Part shown: piece after piece, positions 1-22,734 of the stretch | How the letters are laid out: each line of letters starts with the position of its first letter | Numbering within the stretch: position 1 is the first letter of the stretch | DNA from: a virus | Virus record (IMG/VR): IMGVR_UViG_3300034374_004769 | Span: 1 to 25,594 of that record | Strand: one strand, 5' to 3' | Length of the DNA: 25,594 nt | The notes under the pieces: generated by a model | What the model saw: only the letters and a program-made list of their open reading frames with translations | Told to the model about the DNA's origin: nothing | Database searches by the model: none | Made by a program: the position numbers and the translations under genes

Positions 1-2778
1 TTTCTTTACGTACGACACGCTGTACTTATCTTCCATCTGCCGCTTAAAGTCCGTGTACCCAAAGCTCATACTGGAGCAGTACTGCTTGAGCAGTTTCTCT
101 TCGATGTAGAAGTCAATGTGCCCAATAGTGACGCCGTGCTCGACACGCCCAAAGATTTCACTGCGGGTAATGCTCTGGTCAATGACGCCATCTTCACCCA
201 GCGAAGTAGCAACGGCGCTCTCCAACGCCTTGACCACAACGAACTTACCGTAGAACTCTCTGGTGTATGAGTTGAGAATATCTTCAGCCGTTCGGATACT
301 GTCTTGAACGCTACCTCTGGCGGTTATCACTATGCCCTTCAGAACCGACAAGATACCCTCAATGGGGTAGTCAACGATGTTGGCGTAGCTTGACCCAGCC
401 ACAATCGCACCAGCTACCAAGCACGTGCACCCCGCCAGCCAGTAGCGCTCATCATCGGTAAAGCCAAACTCTTTCTTCAAGCGTGTACGGGTCTTGGCTA
501 CGATGTCGGCAACCTGATCTTTGTTGTTCACAAGATACTGTGCGTATCTGTCACCTGCCACACCGTAGTTCGACTTCAGTAGGGAGAGGATTTCCGTGTC
601 GCCCTCTTGCCATTGAATGACTTTACTCATCGTAAGCTCAAGCACCCGCCTAACTTCACCGTCTGAGGAGTGCTTTCGTGCCCCTGTGAGGTAGTCAACC
701 ACGTGGGTGTTGGAAGACAGTAACGCCATTGAGCACCAGTACGTTGTGTTCTCGCGCTCTTTGTTGGCGCCTGCCTCCATTCGGTCTTTGCCCAGACCCT
801 CAGACACATCGAAAATAAACCCAGGCACCCACTCAAAGTCTTTGCGGTTCTTGCTGGTGATCTCGTCAGAAATGAGCGGCAGGCTGTGAAGAAGTCCAAG
901 GCGCTGTTGCATTGCAACGTCAGAGGTTGACTTGTTGACCCTAAACTTTGTTGGGTGCCCCCATACGCTTGCCGCCAGTTCCAAGGTTAGGGTTTTCCCT
1001 GTACCCGACTCGCTTGAACCAAGGTGCCAGCTAAAGCCTTCATAGCCAGTAAAGCGCATGAGCGGTGTGCCGAAACCTACCAACGACATGGCAAGAATCT
1101 CGTGCATCTTTCTTGCCGCCAACAGCTTAATGATATTGCGCCAGTTGTCGAGATTGCCTTGAGGTTTAGTTGCTTTGTTGATGTTGACCAGCCCCCGCAT
1201 CGGCACGTGCCTCGGACTCATATTGGCTGAGTACACATGCTCGTTGAATACAAAGCTGTCATCGGGTTGCCAGCCATAGTTAGTAGGCACTTGGATCGGT
1301 AGCTGATTGGCTGAGGCGTGTTCAACGGCGGCACGCACATACTCGTAAAGGTTCTTGTCGTTGCCCGACCCAAACATCGCCATGATGTTCTGCTGAGCTA
1401 GGGTCTTAATTGTGTCGTCTTTGGATGCAATAGATCTCTGAGCGAGAGTTACTTCTTGGGGGCCAGTCGGGCGCATCGCCAGCATATAAATAATGTGATC
1501 GCCTTCTTGGCAGAGAATGTGTACAACGAACAGGTCATACGGTAGCAGGGGCACTTGTTTCACCGTGCTGTTGCCTTGGCTGTCGGTTTCTGACTTCTCC
1601 ATATACACACCGCCGTTGGCGCCGTATGCGTAGCCTTTGGGGGGCACTGGGCGTTTAATGGTGGGTGATGGTGGGGGTGCGGTCACGGTTGGCTGGGGTG
1701 CTGGTGTTAGGCTTATTTCTTTCTCGGTTGTGTCGAGCTTTGTCTCCCTGCCCAAAGCTAACGGGTTGGTTACCTTGCCATAGTGGGGGCAGTTGTTGCA
1801 AATGCCGGGGTTCAGACTATCAATACTGACGCATGAATAGGGGCCTTTTATCTCGTTGAGCTTTGTCTGCATGCGCTCTGCATCGTATGGATGCAACCCA
1901 CTTAGCCACGCAGAAGCTTTCTCGCCGTCAGAACAGGGCTTAGCCAGCGACAACATGGCACGCCACAGAGGCTCCATACCATCGTCAGCGGCGTTCTCCA
2001 TATAGTGAGCAAGTTGCCCACAACCTGTGCCGTCTTTGGTGCGCTTAACTATGTTCTTAAATATGGTGACGCTGTTCGACATCAGCGTGAGGTTTGGCTG
2101 GCCTTTGGACGTTGGGCGTGCGCCGGGTAGGCTGATGACTTGGGCAGTCGGTAGGGATGCCTTCAGCTTGCTGGTAATGAACGCTTCAATAGCAGAGAAC
2201 TCAAACGCCCCTGTGCCTTCGCCAAGAATCTTGACTGGCTTAGGCGGGTTGAACTTGTGATTTACTGTGCCTGGTATGCGTAAAACACGTGCGGCGTCAG
2301 CCGTACAGTTCCAGTCAATCTCAAGCCCCTCTTGTTTGCACAAGCGTTTGAAGCTCTCGGCTAAGGGTTTCCACTTAGATACTTCAACTTCTTCAGTAAA
2401 GGGCCAGTAAATGTGATACCCCCCGCCTGAAGAAACCACAATGGGTTGCCCAAGGTCACGCATGCCCGTCTTAGCCATAAAGGCTTCAAAGGCATCAGCC
2501 GCTTCTTTACGAGACTTATAGGTCTTTTTATCGCCAAGATCTAGGTCAATGAACAACGCCTTAAGAAGATTGGCGTTTTCTGCAACTCGTGACCCAGCCT
2601 CTTTGAAAGAAGCTAAAGCAAAGTAAACATCTTTTGTTTCTGCCCATGAGTCGGCGATGCCAATAAGCTCAGCAATGCTATCTACATAGACATGTTCTTT
2701 TTTCTTGGTGGTGAACTCAGCCGCACAGAAAAAACCTGAAGACGGGAGTACCGCCGCTAGAAAATCAAGCGGTTGCAT
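1..2778 (-). CDS. Primase-polymerase / helicase fusion protein, partial (runs off left edge)
   Basis: The reading frame is open from ATG at 2778 to base 1 (926 residues, no stop). The N-terminal part looks like an archaeo-eukaryotic primase (PrimPol): an FIDLDLGD acidic motif at about residues 73-82, an SSGGGYHIYW motif at about 112-122, and further on RIPGTVNHK, typical of phage primases. A Cys/His cluster (CVSIDSLNPGICNNCPH) near residue 320 could bind zinc. The C-terminal half carries a P-loop, SSESGTGKT, with its Lys at residue 595, and a Walker B-like LPLISDE about 50 residues later, as in DUF927/phage helicase-primase proteins. Inferred role: primer synthesis and unwinding at the phage fork. 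It is the last visible gene of the leftward operon; the start follows closely on the preceding small gene. Domain type is fairly sure, exact family less so. Confidence 0.85.
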   Translation of the reverse strand, partial: MQPLDFLAAVLPSSGFFCAAEFTTKKKEHVYVDSIAELIGIADSWAETKDVYFALASFKEAGSRVAENANLLKALFIDLDLGDKKTYKSRKEAADAFEAFMAKTGMRDLGQPIVVSSGGGYHIYWPFTEEVEVSKWKPLAESFKRLCKQEGLEIDWNCTADAARVLRIPGTVNHKFNPPKPVKILGEGTGAFEFSAIEAFITSKLKASLPTAQVISLPGARPTSKGQPNLTLMSNSVTIFKNIVKRTKDGTGCGQLAHYMENAADDGMEPLWRAMLSLAKPCSDGEKASAWLSGLHPYDAERMQTKLNEIKGPYSCVSIDSLNPGICNNCPHYGKVTNPLALGRETKLDTTEKEISLTPAPQPTVTAPPPSPTIKRPVPPKGYAYGANGGVYMEKSETDSQGNSTVKQVPLLPYDLFVVHILCQEGDHIIYMLAMRPTGPQEVTLAQRSIASKDDTIKTLAQQNIMAMFGSGNDKNLYEYVRAAVEHASANQLPIQVPTNYGWQPDDSFVFNEHVYSANMSPRHVPMRGLVNINKATKPQGNLDNWRNIIKLLAARKMHEILAMSLVGFGTPLMRFTGYEGFSWHLGSSESGTGKTLTLELAASVWGHPTKFRVNKSTSDVAMQQRLGLLHSLPLISDEITSKNRKDFEWVPGFIFDVSEGLGKDRMEAGANKERENTTYWCSMALLSSNTHVVDYLTGARKHSSDGEVRRVLELTMSKVIQWQEGDTEILSLLKSNYGVAGDRYAQYLVNNKDQVADIVAKTRTRLKKEFGFTDDERYWLAGCTCLVAGAIVAGSSYANIVDYPIEGILSVLKGIVITARGSVQDSIRTAEDILNSYTREFYGKFVVVKALESAVATSLGEDGVIDQSITRSEIFGRVEHGVTIGHIDFYIEEKLLKQYCSSMSFGYTDFKRQMEDKYSVSYVKK

Positions 2779-2793
2779 ACCAACTCCCAGTTG

Positions 2794-2949
2794 TTATTGT
2801 GCGGGTACTGCTAGCTTGTCAAGCGCTTTCTCGTAGCGTTTAAGCAGTTCTTCTTGATAAGTTTTAGGCAACTCATCAGTTATAAGAATCTGCAAACACG
2901 TTTTGAAGAACTCCTCGTCGGTCAATTGCGTAGGTTGAATTGCGTACAT
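2794..2949 (-). CDS. Small hypothetical protein (51 aa)
   Basis: A short ORF between the helix-turn-helix gene and the primase-helicase gene. Of two in-frame ATGs (2961 and 2949), 2949 is chosen because a GGAGAG ribosome-binding site lies a few bases before it; the first ATG overlaps that site. The product is charged and predicted helical (an LTDEEFFKTCLQIL segment, then a Lys/Glu-rich helix). It has no recognisable domain. The first 28 bp overlap the end of the upstream gene in another frame, and the primase-helicase start lies 15 bp after its stop, so translation is probably coupled. Function unknown. Confidence 0.6.
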   Translation of the reverse strand: MYAIQPTQLTDEEFFKTCLQILITDELPKTYQEELLKRYEKALDKLAVPAQ

Positions 2950-3203
2950 ATTTCTCTCCATGCGTCTTCGGTTTGGCTCACCTTCTTTAGTGTGTCGATG
3001 ATCGTCGTGACGCGATCTTTGTACGCTGAGGTTACTTCTGTTGAGCCAGTGAACCAGTTATAAACGGTTTGTCGGGTAGCCCCTGTTGCCATAGCAATGC
3101 GCTTAACAGATATATCTCTGTACATGGCCCACTTGGCAAGTTCAGTACCAAGTGTCTTGGGGGCGTTATTGATGGTGTTTCTAGTTTTGTCTGAGTAGGG
3201 CAT
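2922..3203 (-). CDS. Helix-turn-helix DNA-binding protein, Cro/CI-like
   Basis: The 93-residue product contains the segment ISVKRIAMATGATRQTVYNW, with the spacing of a helix-turn-helix (ELAKWA ... ISVKRIAMATG - ATRQTVYNWF), followed by a helical C-terminus. Known Cro/CI-family folds of this size bind DNA as dimers and repress or switch phage promoters; that role here is inference. The start at 3203 has no good SD. A GTG at 3218 is an alternative, preceded by GAGGGG but buried in a hairpin. The gene lies between the single-strand-binding-like gene and the primase-helicase, so it may regulate replication genes or act elsewhere in the genome. Confidence 0.7.
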   Translation of the reverse strand: MPYSDKTRNTINNAPKTLGTELAKWAMYRDISVKRIAMATGATRQTVYNWFTGSTEVTSAYKDRVTTIIDTLKKVSQTEDAWREICTQFNLRN

Positions 3204-13257: not shown

Positions 13258-14511
13258 TTAAGAATAAATACGCAAGGTTTTGCCATGCGCAGGTTTGAAG
13301 TGGTCGTTGTTAACAACGCCCCACAGTTCGTTGCCACACGCAGGTGTGGGGCAAGCGTCGAGATAACCGTCAGTCAACCAGATAGCACCTGCCGGTTTGT
13401 ATTGTTTAGATTGAACGTAGTCGATGACACATTGAGGCGAAGTGCCACCACCACCCTGAGGTGCGAGTTGCGTAGCGATCTGAGCGTACTCACCTTCTTT
13501 GAACGTCTGCTCACCGCACACCTCTGAGTCCCACCAAACGATGCGAACAAGTTTGGGGTTGGCTTGCTGACAGATGTTGGCGATCTCACCGAACACTACT
13601 GGATAGTCACCATGCATGGAGCCAGAGGTGTCGCAGTAAATATGCAACTCGTCAACAGCAACGTCGAAGTGTGACGGCATGAGTATGCCAAGTGGTAACA
13701 ACCTACGGTTGGGCGGGTTGAAGCGAGAGTGCTCATCGCCAGCGCAGATTTCCTGAACCCAGCTACGCAACGCCTCACGCCAGTTTGTGTTGCGCTTGTG
13801 CGCAAGACCAGACAGCGGATTGTTGGCAGACGTTCTACCAGCGTTACGAGCGATACGCTTCTGCACCATCTCGCCGTGGATCAACGCTTCACGCACTTGC
13901 TTAGACACCGCCTCTTTGTCGGTGCCTTCTGAGGCTTGCATGTGTTTGTCAAGCGTCTTGGGTAGTCCGTTGCCAGACGCCTCGTCATCACCACCACCGC
14001 TACCTTCTTTCTTGCCATTACCACCAGGGGGAGGCGGCGGCATAGTGCGGAGTAAGTCTTGCAGTACGTCAACGAACGAGCGGTTGTAATACTTGGGGTC
14101 GAGCAATGGCTCGGGGTCATCGGGGTACTCAATGAACTTGTGCTCGGGGTCAGTCTGTTCAATGAACGCATTGACAACATAGTCCATCGCCACGTTGGAA
14201 AGGTCAGGGTACTTCTTGCAAATGTCCATGTAGTCGGTGCAATGACCCAAGGCTTTGTGACCGCCCTCGTGTAGCTTGACGAAGCGTAACTGCTTACGAG
14301 TGAGTGACATTACAAAGTCAGCACCGTAGTACTCGTCAAGGCCATTGGTACCTGCTGTTGGTAGATCAGTCACAACGTGAGTCTGACCCATTGTGACGAT
14401 GCCGCACATGACGCTGAAGTCGATGTGATCCATTATGTCGATGGTGACAGCGGCGATGCGCTGGCGTGGGGTCATCAAGTCCCACGTTGATTGAGCTTGT
14501 GTTTTAGCCAT
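13258..14511 (-). CDS. VWA-like metallopeptidase (DUF2201 type)
   Basis: The 417-residue protein joins two parts. The N-terminal part carries HEGGH at 81-85 (KLHEGGHKALGH), an HExxH zinc motif, as in the putative metallopeptidase domain of DUF2201. The centre has a Pro/Gly linker (158-182). The C-terminal part is a von Willebrand A-type domain with a MIDAS metal site: DTSGS at 294-298, the Thr in GGGGTSPQ (about 357) and the Asp in LTDG (381). VWA proteins of this kind act with a MoxR ATPase, here the adjacent gene, to remodel or mature target complexes. Start ATG 14511 follows AAAGGAGAGTCAATC. The target in the phage cycle is unknown. Confidence 0.9.
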   Translation of the reverse strand: MAKTQAQSTWDLMTPRQRIAAVTIDIMDHIDFSVMCGIVTMGQTHVVTDLPTAGTNGLDEYYGADFVMSLTRKQLRFVKLHEGGHKALGHCTDYMDICKKYPDLSNVAMDYVVNAFIEQTDPEHKFIEYPDDPEPLLDPKYYNRSFVDVLQDLLRTMPPPPPGGNGKKEGSGGGDDEASGNGLPKTLDKHMQASEGTDKEAVSKQVREALIHGEMVQKRIARNAGRTSANNPLSGLAHKRNTNWREALRSWVQEICAGDEHSRFNPPNRRLLPLGILMPSHFDVAVDELHIYCDTSGSMHGDYPVVFGEIANICQQANPKLVRIVWWDSEVCGEQTFKEGEYAQIATQLAPQGGGGTSPQCVIDYVQSKQYKPAGAIWLTDGYLDACPTPACGNELWGVVNNDHFKPAHGKTLRIYS

Positions 14512-14536
14512 GATTGACTCTCCTTTGTTTTGTTAA

Positions 14537-15691
14537 TCAAACTTTGAAATAGATGCGATTGTCGGCAAGCATCTTTGCGTACTCGGCGATGGTAAGAAAG
14601 TACTGAGCAGTAGAAGTCTCTGACACCCGTCGAACAAAGAGACTCTGAAGCTCAGGCTCCAAGCGGTTGACGTAAGTGACGTAGGCTTGCGCCTCATCAC
14701 GGTCACGTGTCTGCCCAATCATCTTGAGTACGAGAACCTGCTGAGCAATCTTGTTGCGTGGTAAGTCAGCGGTGTTGGGGTTGGCCTTGATGGAACTAAG
14801 GCTTGGCAACTGCTGACCGAACTTGATGTAAGACAGAATCTTGGCGGCGTAAACTTCACCCACCGTGCCAGCCAGTGCTGACTCAAGCGTCTTGTCATCG
14901 AACGCACCAAGCTCGTACGCATCGAGAATGTCAGACGCCGCATGCAACGAACGAAGCGAAGCGTAAGCAGTCTGAGGTGTCAGCGCATGAGGGTTGAAGA
15001 TCGACGGGTTGTCTTTCTCCAAGTTGACGCCGTGAAACTTGCCGCCTTCCTCGTAGTCCAAGAACGAGTCGAACACCTCGGGGTGCTCATCGAGACACGC
15101 CATCAGCATAGCGTTCATGCCGTTGGGTATGGCGAAGTCGTTGAAGTACTCCTCTTTGGTAGCCTTGCGCATCTTGACTTTGATAAGTCGGTTGCCAAGG
15201 TGAGCTTGCAACATATCGCCCAGACCCTCGTTCGCTAGGTTGGTCGCCATGATGACGATTGAACCATCGGGCGCATAGAACACACCGGCCCTGCGCTCGT
15301 AGCCGATAGGTGCGATCATGTTCTTAACGTACTGAGGAATCTTGGCGATCTCGTCGAACATAATCAGCGTAGGCTTGGCGCCGTTGACGCCACGCTGGTT
15401 GGTACGACTGATGCCAAGGCGCTCGTTGGGTAGCTCGGTAGACACGCCACGCTCACGGTCAATGTCAGGCATGAACAGCGAACCGTCAGACAACTGAGTG
15501 CAGTCGATAGGTGCTGGCTTGATGAAGTCAGCAAAGTCGGGGTCAGCACACAGCGCCTTGTGAATCGAGGTCTTGCCGATACCGTTCTCGCCCATCACAA
15601 GTACCGTGCGCTTGTGGCCCACGCCTTTGATGAGGCTGACGATTTGCTTGAACGAAAGAAAGTCGGATTGATTGGTTGATTGATTAGCCAT
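14537..15691 (-). CDS. MoxR/CobS-type AAA+ ATPase
   Basis: The 384-residue ATPase has Walker A GENGIGKT (34-41), Walker B LIMFDE (109-114), a sensor-1 ATN (149-151) and an Arg in GNRLIKV (168). The PIGYERRAGVFYAPDGS stretch before sensor 1 is typical of the MoxR/CobS branch, ring-shaped chaperone-like ATPases. Such proteins use ATP to insert cofactors or activate partners through a VWA protein; the neighbour downstream has one. Start ATG 15691 follows AAGGAGAATCATC, the same leader as on several cassette genes, suggesting matched expression. The substrate is not known in phages. Confidence 0.92.
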   Translation of the reverse strand: MANQSTNQSDFLSFKQIVSLIKGVGHKRTVLVMGENGIGKTSIHKALCADPDFADFIKPAPIDCTQLSDGSLFMPDIDRERGVSTELPNERLGISRTNQRGVNGAKPTLIMFDEIAKIPQYVKNMIAPIGYERRAGVFYAPDGSIVIMATNLANEGLGDMLQAHLGNRLIKVKMRKATKEEYFNDFAIPNGMNAMLMACLDEHPEVFDSFLDYEEGGKFHGVNLEKDNPSIFNPHALTPQTAYASLRSLHAASDILDAYELGAFDDKTLESALAGTVGEVYAAKILSYIKFGQQLPSLSSIKANPNTADLPRNKIAQQVLVLKMIGQTRDRDEAQAYVTYVNRLEPELQSLFVRRVSETSTAQYFLTIAEYAKMLADNRIYFKV

Positions 15692-17767: not shown

Positions 17768-17790
17768 GTTTGCGACACCATGTCGCAAAC
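17768..17790. repeat. Palindromic repeat, copy 1
   Basis: Two perfect 10-bp arms, GTTTGCGACA and TGTCGCAAAC, flank a CCA centre. On the - strand the stem begins at the last base of the TAG stop of the small membrane gene and is followed by ATTTTAATAAGG, only a weak T-run. It belongs to a six-copy family in this region and may act as an RNA hairpin or protein-binding site. Confidence 0.9.
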
Positions 17791-19366: not shown

Positions 19367-19552
19367 TCACCTCGCTTTCTTCAAAAGAACACACTCGGAC
19401 TTCAGGCGTGACCAAGCCACACTCGCCTCGGCATCGGTCTTGTACCTGTTTGCGACAGTCTGTCGCAAAGGTTTACCTTCAAATGGTTTAGCCTCTACTG
19501 TCTTTAAAAGAGCGCATTGCTCTTGCGTTAGGGCTTTGTACTTGTTAGTCAT
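19367..19552 (-). CDS. Small basic protein containing a palindromic repeat in its coding sequence
   Basis: ATG 19552 follows AAGGAGAATCAACC. The 61-residue product is helical and basic (KYKALTQEQCALLKTVEAK ... TDAEASVAWSRLKSECVLLKKAR). The part PLRQTVANR, about residues 28-36, is encoded by palindrome copy 2, so the repeat has been accommodated in the reading frame. Its stop is built into the ribosome-binding site of the next gene. Function unknown. Confidence 0.62.
   Translation of the reverse strand: MTNKYKALTQEQCALLKTVEAKPFEGKPLRQTVANRYKTDAEASVAWSRLKSECVLLKKAR
19448..19470. repeat. Palindromic repeat, copy 2 (inside a gene)
   Basis: TTTGCGACA and TGTCGCAAA flank a GTC centre; the outermost G:G pair is mismatched. 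This copy lies entirely in the coding sequence of the 61-residue protein. Confidence 0.88.
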
Positions 19553-19609
19553 GGTTGATTCTCCTTAAAAAAGTACTGCGTTAAACAACTGACTCCCTCT
19601 GTACGGGTG

Positions 19610-20128
19610 TCAATCGTGTTTGCTACACCTTGTAGCAAACTTCTTTGAGAGAAGATCTTCCCAGCGCATGGGTACTTTCTTCCCTTCATTCTTTAGGCGC
19701 TTGAATATTTCATTCGCACGCTTTAATTCGTCTAGCCGCACAAGGTCAGGCGCACGCATGGCACGCTTTTTCTCCCTGTCCAGTTGTTTAGCCATGTTGG
19801 TGTAAGTCTCGGCGAACATGGCTTGCCTGTTCTTTAATATGGTCATGCGCTTACTGTCGAGCGCAGACTTACGCATACGCTTCAGAGTCTCGCTGATTTC
19901 CAACTCGGTCTTGCCCTCGTTGTGCATACGCTTGCGTGCCTCGGCAGGCGAGAGTGACATCGTGGGTCTGGTGTGGGTTCTTGCACACTCGTTGCACACA
20001 GCGCTCTCGTACTCAAGGCGTATTCGCATGGCTGGGTTCTTAGTCCACGCACGAGATTGTGCGAGTGATGCCCTGCGTTTGAACGCATCGGGCGGTTTTT
20101 GCTGGTTGCATTGGTCACACAGTTTCAT
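19610..20128 (-). CDS. Four-cysteine zinc-finger-like basic protein
   Basis: ATG 20128 is chosen over a longer frame because GAGAGG lies just before it and the Cys-rich region starts at once. The 172-residue product has Cys4 and Cys7 (MKLCDQC), then Cys45 and Cys48 (CNEC), a likely zinc site. The rest is a long basic helical region with many Lys/Arg (KRMRKSALDSKRMTILKNRQ). A nucleic-acid-binding role is probable. It is the first gene downstream, on this strand, of the repeat-rich region at 20.15-20.48 kb, so it could bind there, but that is a guess. Its last codons contain palindrome copy 3. Confidence 0.68.
   Translation of the reverse strand: MKLCDQCNQQKPPDAFKRRASLAQSRAWTKNPAMRIRLEYESAVCNECARTHTRPTMSLSPAEARKRMHNEGKTELEISETLKRMRKSALDSKRMTILKNRQAMFAETYTNMAKQLDREKKRAMRAPDLVRLDELKRANEIFKRLKNEGKKVPMRWEDLLSKKFATRCSKHD
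19618..19640. repeat. Palindromic repeat, copy 3 (paired base change)
   Basis: GTTTGCTACA and TGTAGCAAAC flank a CCT centre. Compared with the other copies, one G is T in the left arm and the matching C is A in the right arm, so pairing is kept. It is within the last codons of the zinc-finger-like gene. Confidence 0.88.
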
Positions 20129-20151
20129 AAGATACCTCTCGATGTGATTGT

Positions 20152-20482
20152 AAAAAGTGTCCACTTTTTCCCTGCGATGTCCACTTTTATCTCAACTGGA
20201 CACTAAAGTGGGTCAGCAGAGAACGAGTAAACATGCGGGGTTTGGGTAGTAGTGTCCCAACTATAATAGCTTTTTTGGAAACAAGCACGCCGGACAAACA
20301 CAAAGTAAAAAGTGTCCAGAAGTCTAGAAGCCCTATAATAATAATAATAAATAATAAATAATATATTATAGTTAGGACGCTAAAGTGGACAGCGCCAATA
20401 CTGGCGCGGAGTTTGAGTGACCCACTTGTGTGTCCAGCCCAGACAAAAGTGGACTATTGTCCAGATTTGACACAAAAGTGGG
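20152..20482. repeat. Cluster of AAAGTG/GTCCA boxes with AT-rich core; possible origin or control region
   Basis: This gene-free stretch has eight exact GTCCA/TGGAC cores (starting near 20159, 20179, 20197, 20314, 20386, 20432, 20450, 20459) and a near one (20253), most next to AAAGTG or CACTTT, in both orientations. At 20152-20169 two boxes form a perfect inverted repeat, AAAAAGTG-TC-CACTTTTT. A core of (AAT)-type repeats lies at 20333-20370, and a GCGCCA/TGGCGC hairpin at 20392-20407. Repeated boxes plus an easily melted core are typical of replication origins, and also of multi-operator promoters. Neither is proven. Confidence 0.75.
20365..20370 (-). promoter_or_regulatory. Possible leftward -10 box (TATAAT)
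   Basis: On the - strand TATAAT appears at the edge of the AT-rich core, with a GTCCA box near the -35 position rather than a TTGACA. It would drive the zinc-finger-like gene and those further left, perhaps under control of whatever binds the boxes. The absent -35 makes this uncertain. Confidence 0.35.
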
Positions 20483-20510
20483 TATATCACCAACACGTTG
20501 TACACAAGCG

Positions 20511-20531
20511 TTTGCGACAGGTTGTCGCAAA
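20511..20531. repeat. Palindromic repeat, copy 4
   Basis: TTTGCGACA and TGTCGCAAA flank a GGT centre. On the - strand it begins two bases after the TGA of the 51-residue gene, between it and the repeat-rich region. Confidence 0.9.
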
Positions 20532-20533
20532 GC

Positions 20534-20689
20534 TCAGTCGTCTTTCCCAAGGCGATACTCAAGGGCAGACTTCCACTCACGCTTTTGTACCTGCTCACGC
20601 TTGTATCGGGCGCCATGCTTGCGTGGCTTGGCGGTCTTGGCGTCTTGCTTGGCTTTGAACTGCACGAGGTCTTTGTAGGTTTTAGACAT
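20534..20689 (-). CDS. Very basic small protein (51 aa)
   Basis: ATG 20689 follows AGGAGATTCAACC. The product begins MSKTYKDLVQFKAKQDAK and is over a quarter Lys and Arg, with an ending SALEYRLGKDD. Such short basic proteins often bind nucleic acid, but no motif is recognised. Stop and palindrome copy 4 are adjacent. It lies just upstream (in transcription) of the box cluster. Confidence 0.62.
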   Translation of the reverse strand: MSKTYKDLVQFKAKQDAKTAKPRKHGARYKREQVQKREWKSALEYRLGKDD

Positions 20690-20713
20690 GGTTGAATCTC
20701 CTAAGTAGGTTGA

Positions 20714-20851
20714 TTAGATGTACTGCTGGTCTTGCCGCTTGAGCAGACGCCAAGCAACGAAGATTGACCACAGGCTATAACGCCGGTACAGACAATACGC
20801 TAGGCCATGGGCGCGAAGTGAGTCACGAACGTAGAACACGTTGGTACGCAT
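20714..20851 (-). CDS. Small basic protein, possible membrane segment (45 aa)
   Basis: ATG 20851 follows AAGGAGACTTTC, ruling out the longer frame. The product begins MRTNVFYVRDSLRAHGLAYCL and has a partly hydrophobic stretch (YSLWSIFVAWRLL) that might associate with a membrane, ending KRQDQQYI. No family is recognised. Confidence 0.6.
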   Translation of the reverse strand: MRTNVFYVRDSLRAHGLAYCLYRRYSLWSIFVAWRLLKRQDQQYI

Positions 20852-20861
20852 GAAAGTCTCC

Positions 20862-21017
20862 TTAGGCTTTGTAGGATTGAAGAAGCTCGATACCACTCCA
20901 CAGTTGAATGAAGTGGAATTTGCTGGTGAGCGCATGGAACAGCGTGATGGCGTCATAGTAGGTGTTGGCTTTGTACTCACGAATAACGCCGGCATCTTCG
21001 ATACGGATTAAGAACAT
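20862..21017 (-). CDS. Small hypothetical protein (51 aa)
   Basis: ATG 21017 follows GGAGAATCATC, directly after the U-tract of the terminator at 21030-21055. The product begins MFLIRIEDAGVIREYKANTYYDA and continues with helical and aromatic residues (ITLFHALTSKFHFIQLW). A single alpha/beta unit is likely. Its stop (TAA) is followed immediately by the next ribosome-binding site. Because it lies just past a terminator, its level should depend on readthrough. Confidence 0.62.
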   Translation of the reverse strand: MFLIRIEDAGVIREYKANTYYDAITLFHALTSKFHFIQLWSGIELLQSYKA

Positions 21018-21029
21018 GATGATTCTCCA

Positions 21030-21055
21030 AAAGAAAAGGGGCGCCGAAGCGCCCC
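21030..21055 (-). terminator. Rho-independent terminator inside the leftward operon
   Basis: On the - strand a 7-bp GC-rich stem, GGGGCGC/GCGCCCC, closes on a TTCG loop and is followed by TTTTCTTTT. This is a textbook terminator. The next gene's ribosome-binding site starts right after the U-tract, so it probably reduces expression of the genes to its left or needs antitermination. Confidence 0.85.
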
Positions 21056-21062
21056 AAGGTTG

Positions 21063-21083
21063 TTTGCGACAGGTTGTCGCAAA
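21063..21083. repeat. Palindromic repeat, copy 5
   Basis: TTTGCGACA and TGTCGCAAA flank a GGT centre. On the - strand it starts three bases after the TAA of the 136-residue gene and lies just before the terminator stem. Confidence 0.9.
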
Positions 21084-21086
21084 GGT

Positions 21087-21497
21087 TTAGGCCCGACCAA
21101 TGTATTTCATGAGCCGGTCAATCTCGGCTTTCTTGAGTTTGAGAACCGCATCGCCCAGCTTCTGCCACTCGGGTTTGGCCTCGGTCTTGCGTGCGCCGCC
21201 TCGGTTGCTTTTCTTGATGTTGTGAAACTTGGCAATACAGCGTTGCCATTTGCGCTCGGCGGCGTCGTGACGATTGGCTGATGTTGATTCCTCGCTGGTG
21301 TAGAAGTGGTAAGCACCATTCTCGCCTGTGGCAAAGAAGCAATCGTATTGCCTCGCGTGTTCTTCTGCGAGTTGTGCAATGAGCGAATCAGGCAAGAAGC
21401 TTCCCCCTCTGAGTTCTTTCTCCAGCAAACTGTCTAGTTTCAAACTTGTTGCAAGTAACTCGCCGTAAAGCGCAACGATTTGTGATTTGTTAGTCAT
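21087..21497 (-). CDS. Hypothetical protein, first gene of the leftward operon (136 aa)
   Basis: ATG 21497 follows GAAGGAGAGTCAATC; the longer frame passes through palindrome copy 6 and is rejected. The product has an N-terminal helix (SQIVALYGELLATSLKLDSLLEKEL), a central part with YDCFFATGENGAYHFYTSEES, and a basic C-terminal helix. Cysteines are few. First-transcribed phage genes often act against host functions, but there is nothing specific here. It is transcribed from the promoter at 21589-21597 and followed by palindrome copy 5 and a strong terminator. Confidence 0.72.
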   Translation of the reverse strand: MTNKSQIVALYGELLATSLKLDSLLEKELRGGSFLPDSLIAQLAEEHARQYDCFFATGENGAYHFYTSEESTSANRHDAAERKWQRCIAKFHNIKKSNRGGARKTEAKPEWQKLGDAVLKLKKAEIDRLMKYIGRA

Positions 21498-21528
21498 GAT
21501 TGACTCTCCTTCAGGTTGTGGTTGAAGC

Positions 21529-21551
21529 GTTTGCGACACCATGTCGCAAAC
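21529..21551. repeat. Palindromic repeat, copy 6 (operon leader)
   Basis: Perfect 10-bp arms GTTTGCGACA and TGTCGCAAAC flank a CCA centre. This copy lies in the leader between the promoter and the first gene of the leftward operon. Confidence 0.9.
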
Positions 21552-21588
21552 ACGTTGTTGGCTAGGCGTTCTCCCAACCAACACTTAC

Positions 21589-21597
21589 ATTATAACA
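21589..21597 (-). promoter_or_regulatory. Leftward promoter with extended -10
   Basis: The - strand reads TGTTATAAT, a perfect extended -10 box (TGnTATAAT). No good TTGACA lies 16-18 bases upstream, as is usual for extended -10 promoters. It is well placed to start the leftward operon about 90 bases before its first ATG. Confidence 0.6.
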
Positions 21598-21648
21598 TAA
21601 TAGGTATTTAGCCTCTGAGCCTGCCGATTGGTTTGGCGGTTTTGCAGA

Positions 21649-21669
21649 CCCCACCACCCCCCACCCCCC
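21649..21669 (-). other. G-rich tract (- strand), possible G-quadruplex
   Basis: The + strand has C4, C2, C6 and C6 runs separated by single A bases. The - strand therefore carries G-runs close enough to fold as a G-quadruplex. It is upstream of the leftward promoter in the intergenic region. Fold and function are inference. Confidence 0.4.
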
Positions 21670-21729
21670 AAGAATATTGCGGCGATGCAGGCGGAGGCAA
21701 TAACAGTGTTTCGCAGTTACAAACCACAG

Positions 21730-21985
21730 TTGTCAAATTTCTAGTAAAAAATTCAAATCACCTTTGTCAAATTTGATAACATAACTGCGGGGGCCGGGTC
21801 GGCGCGGCGACCTTAAACAGCCCGTACCTGAAGAGCATGGCTGACAGTGACAAGCTCAAAGGAAACGCCAGAACTTCTCCCTTTCTGGTATCGGCCCCCA
21901 CCCTTCTCGCACGCATAAATAAACAAGAGGAGGGAACGCTATGCTAAAAATATTTGTAAAAATCAAAATAGTTATTGTCAAATCT
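21730..21985. repeat. Three TTGTCAAAT boxes in the divergent intergenic region
   Basis: TTGTCAAATTT occurs at 21730-21740 and 21764-21774, and TTGTCAAATCT at 21975-21985. The second contains a 10-bp palindrome, TCAAATTTGA. They flank the foldable element and could be operators or -35-like sites for rightward transcription. Confidence 0.5.
21789..21899 (+). ncRNA. Foldable element closed by GGGGGCCG/CGGCCCCC, possible structured RNA
   Basis: GGGGGCCG (21789-21796) and CGGCCCCC (21892-21899) pair perfectly, enclosing GGTCG/CGACC and CCAGAA/TTCTGG inner hairpins. The remaining gene-free stretch 21598-22065 has no other clear gene. It may be a leader RNA, structured DNA or a packaging-site element. 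It is not recognised as a known RNA family. Confidence 0.35.
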
Positions 21986-21988
21986 TAG
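21941..21988 (+). CDS. Possible 15-residue leader peptide
   Basis: ATG follows a strong GAGGAGGGAACGCT site. The frame reads MLKIFVKIKIVIVKS and stops, a short hydrophobic and basic peptide. It lies between the foldable element and the terminase genes and might act through its translation. The SD is the main support; there is no comparative evidence. Confidence 0.25.
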   Translation: MLKIFVKIKIVIVKS

Positions 21989-22000
21989 ACACAGTTAGAT

Positions 22001-22027
22001 AAAAAGAACCCCCGCAGTTGGCGGGGG
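22001..22027 (-). terminator. Terminator-like hairpin on the - strand before the terminase genes
   Basis: Read on the - strand, CCCCCGC and GCGGGGG pair around CAACT and are followed by TTCTTTTT, a good rho-independent terminator. No - strand gene lies to its right, so it may stop antisense transcription from the structural region into the divergent control region. Read on the + strand there is no U-tract. Confidence 0.6.
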
Positions 22028-22034
22028 CGGGGAA

Positions 22035-22060
22035 AGGGCCTGTGGCCCTACGAGGAGAAT
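22035..22060 (+). promoter_or_regulatory. Hairpin and strong ribosome-binding site of the terminase small-subunit gene
   Basis: AGGGCC and GGCCCT pair around TGT (22035-22049), followed by GAGGAGAAT at 22052-22060. The latter matches the SD used by many genes here (GGAGAATC). Eight bases after GGAG the sequence is ATC, not ATG. This decides the start discussion for the next gene. Confidence 0.55.
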
Positions 22061-22065
22061 CAAAC

Positions 22066-22734
22066 ATCACTGCTCTTGCGAGCAGGCAGAAGCAAGTATA
22101 CACTCGTGCCTACAGAGCACAAGCTTTGCTTACGGGAGGAATGACCCGCGTGTTAGAACATTTGGTACAAGGTAACTATGATCCGGCGATATACAACTCG
22201 CCGATGGACGGCTTTTTGCCTTTGGAAAAGGCAGATGCTAATGAGCTACTTGAAGCGCAGATCAATACAACCGACTGGTTGACTGAACTTGGCGCCAAAC
22301 CAGATGACGATGTTGTGGCTGATGCACAAGACACACAAGCACGAAATGCTTTCCATGCGTTGACCGCAGACCCCGAAACGGCAAAGCAGGCACTGACGCA
22401 AATTACCCTACCCCCCGCCATTCAAAGATTAGTCAGCATGCTGACTGTTTACGACTGGTCGTTTGTTGAGCACGCCAAGCAGTTGCGGGGTATGGCGGTG
22501 GCTAAGATTCTTGAAGAGACAGACCACCCTGACGCACGGATACGCCTAAAAGCTCTTGAGATGCTAGGTAAAGTCACAGAGGTGGGGCTGTTCACAGACC
22601 GTATCGAGATCAAAAAGACTGAGCTAAGTGACCACGAGCTTGACGAGAAGATTAAGCAAAAGCTAGCGGCTATACAAAACACGGTTGAGGTTGACGCAAC
22701 TGAGGTCGAAACAATCGACGATGAACAGGATTAG
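22066..22734 (+). CDS. terS: Terminase small subunit (start codon anomalous)
   Basis: The small subunit recognises phage DNA and guides the large subunit in packaging. The assignment rests mainly on position directly before the large-subunit gene, overlapping it by 14 bp, and on a helical protein of suitable length (about 220 aa) with an acidic C-terminus. The best start by SD is ATC at 22066 (product ITALASRQKQVYTRAYRAQALL). Canonical alternatives are TTG 22018 and GTG 22042, both upstream of the SD and in hairpins, or ATG 22141, which loses 25 residues. A sequence error or true near-cognate start is possible. Residues around ILEETDHPDARIRLKALEMLGKV form a helical repeat seen in some TerS proteins. 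Confidence 0.75.
   Translation: MTALASRQKQVYTRAYRAQALLTGGMTRVLEHLVQGNYDPAIYNSPMDGFLPLEKADANELLEAQINTTDWLTELGAKPDDDVVADAQDTQARNAFHALTADPETAKQALTQITLPPAIQRLVSMLTVYDWSFVEHAKQLRGMAVAKILEETDHPDARIRLKALEMLGKVTEVGLFTDRIEIKKTELSDHELDEKIKQKLAAIQNTVEVDATEVETIDDEQD

Follow-up and report, generated by a model that had tools for sequence, protein, structure and literature searches.

An element in the early region of an uncultivated freshwater phage is probably the origin of replication of that phage. It lies in a gap between two leftward genes, within a window of 25,594 nt (the whole stretch of DNA that was analysed, IMG/VR record IMGVR_UViG_3300034374_004769), and it is a real and conserved cis element; the occurrence of one site per genome argues for a site of this kind. 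The original prediction had proposed either an origin or a switch. The first part is favoured by the conserved place of the element, its A/T core, its box-core-box layout and an initiator-type helicase encoded in the same operon, but the promoter or switch part was not sustained.

Composition of the array and its core

Nine TGTCC sites and eight AAAGTG sites are arranged around a 37-bp core of pure A/T (Table 1). AAAGTG and GTCCA had been described as boxes in their own right but are the two halves of a single composite box, AAAGTGGACA/TGTCCACTTT, which is present in both orientations and occurs in the perfect form, in a form with one half flipped (AAAGTGTCCA) and as the variant AAAGTGGGT. The clustering itself is real, and the predicted number of about nine boxes in both orientations agrees with the count of TGTCC. 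All six copies of AAAAGTG in the window fall in the array, as do eight of the 14 copies of AAAGTG and seven of the 15 copies of TGTCCA, and TGTCC is found nine times in the 461-bp element, where the window-based expectation is 0.38. When no more than one mismatch is allowed, AAAGTGGACA has four copies in the array and none elsewhere in the window. With two mismatches allowed the window total of 30 is not above the 28.6 expected by chance, so that what stands out is the clustering together with the near-perfect copies. No comparable box cluster was found at any other gap of the window. The perfect back-to-back pair and the GCGCCA hairpin beside the core, both described previously, were recovered (Table 1); in relatives the hairpin shows a C-G/T-G pair.

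The A/T-only core had been expected to melt easily. No 40-mer of the window is less stable (-33.4, compared with -41.8 for the runner-up), and in all 21 element-bearing contigs, which are up to 67 kb in length, the core is likewise the 40-mer of lowest stability over the entire contig; these 21 contigs include several near copies and represent about 15 lineages. The core is enclosed by a long inverted repeat that was absent from the original prediction, with arms of 37 bp and 31 matches. No other inverted repeat in the window comes near its score of 44, the next reaching 25; it ranks first of 234 scanned segments and its score was reached in none of 300 shuffles.

Table 1. Positions of the candidate origin, its parts and associated features in the window
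Feature	Position	Strand	Remark
Whole candidate origin (box array, A/T core and arms)	20152..20484	.	Gap flanked by two leftward genes
Back-to-back box pair AAAAAGTG-TC-CACTTTTT	20152..20169	.	
Left arm of long inverted repeat (boxes TGTCCACTTTT, CTGGACAC, AAGTGGGTCA)	20179..20215	+	
Left core-flank box AAAGTGTCCA	20309..20318	+	Inward-facing
A/T-only core TATAATAATAATAATAAATAATAAATAATATATTATA, candidate DNA unwinding element	20334..20370	.	
Right core-flank box AAAGTGGACA	20382..20391	+	Inward-facing; TGTCC half inverted relative to left flank box
Hairpin GCGCCA-ATAC-TGGCGC, followed by conserved GCGGGTTTG-type motif (here GCGCGGAGTTTG)	20392..20407	+	
Right arm of long inverted repeat	20418..20454	-	
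Conserved extended -10 element TGTTATAAT, likely early promoter	21589..21597	-	Leftward; outside the array
Primase-helicase gene, proposed initiator	1..2778	-	Cut by window end; 960 aa in L114
93-aa helix-turn-helix protein, possible helper	2922..3203	-	Directly upstream of primase

Conservation of place and turnover of sequence

Relatives were found through the terminase large subunit, which gave 80 IMG/VR loci, and 15 element-bearing lineages were examined in whole or long contigs. In about 25 of the 80 loci a box cluster is situated 2-3 kb upstream of terL. Conservation of the boxes in relatives had been proposed as a check on the original prediction, and cluster, place and box-core-box layout do recur in these contigs. 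The largest contigs measure about 60-67 kb; in these an early operon extends for about 20 kb between the element and the primase, and the late genes are read in the opposite direction. No near DNA match was found among cultured phages.

The sequence of the boxes is less constant than their place. TGTCCA/AAGTGGAC boxes mark lineages with a primase identity of about 57% or above, and more distant lineages carry other repeated words, such as GGATAC in G028 and TTAATCA in G035. The C-terminal end of the primase-helicase is one residue longer in genomes with few TGTCC boxes, the counts being 1-3 with the extra residue and 5-9 without it. This co-variation is just a hint of a connection because two changes on the tree would suffice to produce it.

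The enclosing inverted repeat is also widespread. Its arms are 38-68 bp long in relatives and it ranks first in 16 of the 21 contigs (10 of 15 lineages), with scores of up to 76 compared with about 22-30 elsewhere in the contigs; five contigs (G003, G005, G006, G019 and G036) have only weak long arms, a point against the origin reading. The arms of the window and of G022, G026, G028, L028 and L058 have little in common beyond TGTCC/GGACA words, yet within each of these genomes the left and right arms match. In one clade of eight sequences six pairs of compensatory double changes were counted, compared with 1.6 in shuffles (the number was reached in none of 500), and controls in which the arms were slid gave 0-2 pairs in the same clade. 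For instance, TGGACG in the left arm has become TGGGTC in L038, where TGTCCA in the right arm has become GACCCA, and between the window and L012 a change of T to A in one arm is accompanied by the matching change in the other.

Arms that change in step can mean that their pairing is selected, that conversion homogenises them, or that symmetric protein sites are tracking their protein. The first of these meanings allows for an origin whose action depends on the fold of its arms, with the pairing itself, as a cruciform or single-strand hairpin, under selection. On this tentative reading the arm sequence would drift through changes made in pairs, and the A/T core, the GCGGGTTTG motif and the location of the element would stay constant.

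A turning point of the GC skew had also been suggested as a check. The cumulative GC skew of the window does have its minimum at 19917. The minimum in relatives is close to the array or to the switch of gene strand, and most large contigs have their maximum where the primase gene ends. The skew follows gene strand and transcription, however, and it therefore provides no independent support for an origin; it was rejected as proof.

The proposed initiator and known origins

The primase-helicase encoded at the start of the window matches DUF927 above cutoff and has profile matches to 5dgk and 8tch. In a structural model built from 23 sequences (mean pLDDT 79.5, pTM 0.52) residues 1-202 resemble the S-2L PrimPol, and residues 376-950 match SCCmec Cch (Z 27.9) and SaPIbov1 Rep (Z 25.0). 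The protein is thus predicted to be an archaeo-eukaryotic primase fused to an initiator helicase of the SaPIbov1-Rep/SCCmec-Cch type, including the C-terminal end of that family. SaPI Rep helicases are self-loading initiators whose C-terminal domain reads the iterons (PMC7581432). We infer that the array, some 17 kb away from the primase gene, is bound by the phage primase-helicase. The enzyme would bind the boxes as opposed oligomers, distort and then melt the A/T core, load on both strands and prime synthesis in both directions by the phage family A DNA polymerase. Pairing of the arms during opening, as a cruciform or a single-strand hairpin, may also occur.

Other proteins were considered as partners of the array. 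The 93-aa helix-turn-helix protein encoded directly upstream of the primase is present in 25 contigs and probably belongs to the replication machinery. It is unlikely to be the reader of the changing boxes, since its recognition helix (RQTVYNWF) is nearly invariant while the boxes change, although it may read a constant motif. The zinc-finger-like neighbour, whose presence beside the gap had been noted in the original prediction, is confined to the five closest contigs; it does not belong to the system and was rejected as a binder. The early region also encodes a pair consisting of an AAA ATPase and a VWA/metallopeptidase protein (DUF2201) at 13258-15691, and the annotations of Rhizobium phage RHph_TM3_14A and Planktothrix phage Pag-Yong1 include similar ATPase/VWA pairs.

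The phage protein is similar to SaPIbov1 Rep and SCCmec Cch in its helicase part, C-terminal end included, and the SaPIbov1 origin has short repeated boxes as the phage array does. It differs from both in being fused to a primase. The SaPI origin is situated directly downstream of rep, whereas the phage array lies at 20.2 kb with the primase at the start of the window, an arrangement also seen in relatives; this separation counts against the proposed origin. The phage boxes, unlike those of the SaPIbov1 ori, are inverted and sit within long covarying arms. The functionally similar SCCmec Cch2 needs an AAGTG iteron (PMC7581432), but the likeness of that iteron to the phage boxes may be due to chance because Cch2 belongs to another helicase family.

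A further likeness is to oriS of herpes simplex virus, in which boxes 1 and 2 are inverted around an A/T spacer and box 3 forms a hairpin with box 1 (PMC12543377). The two core-flank boxes of the phage are likewise inverted around the A/T core, with more boxes and longer arms than in oriS. No UL9-type helicase (PF02399) was detected at an E-value of 0.01, and the SF2 helicase at 4601-6163 matches SNF2/Helicase_C; as no homologous binding protein was found, the element is not classed with herpes oriS. Phage NrS-1 offers another comparison: for its primase-polymerase a sequence-specific 8-nt start site has been proposed as an origin, and the available part of that account describes two such 8-nt sites and no box array (PMC7102993).

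Among cultured phages, Pseudomonas phage Rollin has a primase (26%) and a PolA (29%) related to those of the phage. At least four copies or near copies of the quasi-palindrome AAAAGGTAGCAAGTTACTACCTTTT are present in Rollin 1-600, near an (AAT)n tract that is the weakest duplex, and from its sequence this array is a candidate origin. Its box sequence differs from that of the phage array and the noncoding gap is larger. The weakest duplex and strong inverted repeats of Rollin share this noncoding gap (the top-scoring inverted repeat, at 1050, consists of N only and was left out of account). A similar coincidence occurs in DSL-LC04, where one noncoding gap contains both the weakest duplex (at 20558) and the best inverted repeat. 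The records of Rollin and DSL-LC04 carry no origin annotation at these sites, and no clear counterpart of the element was found in HTVC027P, 023Pt_psg01, Pag-Yong1 or Rhizobium phage RHph_TM3_14A. The combination of boxes, an unwinding element and a self-loading helicase is of an already known kind; what is new here is that the arms are long and covary and that the array is so far from the gene of the proposed initiator.

Alternative functions and significance

It is unlikely that the element is instead a multi-operator region in which a phage repressor or activator occupies the boxes and controls leftward early transcription. Such a role would accord with the position of the boxes immediately upstream of a leftward gene and with the TGTCCA-N15-TATAAT spacing on either flank of the core. 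Pairs of sigma-70 -35 and -10 elements, however, number zero in 19400-22100, a stretch that includes the array, compared with 2.1 expected; an unusual or extended -10 promoter may still be present. A conserved leftward extended -10 element is found 1.2 kb upstream of the array, so that early transcription can start there. Most of the sequences examined have an element of this type (TGNTATAAT) at the corresponding place, some 940-1260 bp upstream of terL; the chance estimate for the 9-mer is about 0.7 per searched stretch, and position and context are alike between relatives. Furthermore, box clusters are missing from all other gaps of the window, and an operator would leave the weakest duplex of the contig and the paired arms unexplained.

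Another set of repeats surrounds the array. Five palindromes of 21 bp with identical stems, TTTGCGACA-NNN-TGTCGCAAA, are located at 17769-17789, 19449-19469, 20511-20531, 21063-21083 and 21530-21550, and with a variant at 19619-19639 the total is six compared with 0.2 expected. In G002, G004 and G005 the copies read TTTGGGACA-NNN-TGTCCCAAA. All copies have therefore switched together, a concerted change of the kind expected of operators.

A functional long stem, either in a structured RNA (for example a rightward antisense RNA or a leader) or in a single-strand DNA hairpin, would account for the covarying stems and for fold energies that are well below those of shuffles for most elements (15 shuffles each). 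G-T pairs on the + strand also outnumber A-C pairs (43 compared with 22), but this bias is mild, is not independent between relatives and may reflect mutation. There is no promoter match, no Rfam family scored above its gathering threshold in 19400-22100, and the most conserved part of the element is the A/T core rather than the stem, all of which makes this an improbable function.

A packaging (pac/cos) or partition site is very improbable: the terminase genes are about 2 kb away and numerous boxes in both orientations resemble arrays of terminase or ParB sites, but the pile-up of contig ends adjoins terS, away from the element, and large contigs end at varied places. That pile-up was seen in IMG/VR contigs of more than 7 kb, where 12 ends, compared with 2.5 expected, fall 700-1200 bp upstream of terL, and it may represent genome ends or a difficulty of assembly. 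The corresponding region of the window is 21600-22000, upstream of terS. Some contigs from different samples share a start base (L031/L033, L074/L078).

To our knowledge the origins of most environmental phages are unknown and have seldom been located by GC skew. If the element is the origin, as we consider probable, it provides a rule by which the weakest duplex of a genome is sought inside its strongest inverted repeat, in a gap near the boundary of early and late genes. This rule yields one site per genome in most of the clade, points to a candidate initiator in the primase fused to a SaPI-Rep-like helicase, and predicts candidate origins in the cultured phages Rollin and DSL-LC04. The matched changes of the two arms raise the question of their cause, and should the fold of the arms prove to be what is selected, the element would represent a new type of origin for phages with a DUF927 primase-helicase.
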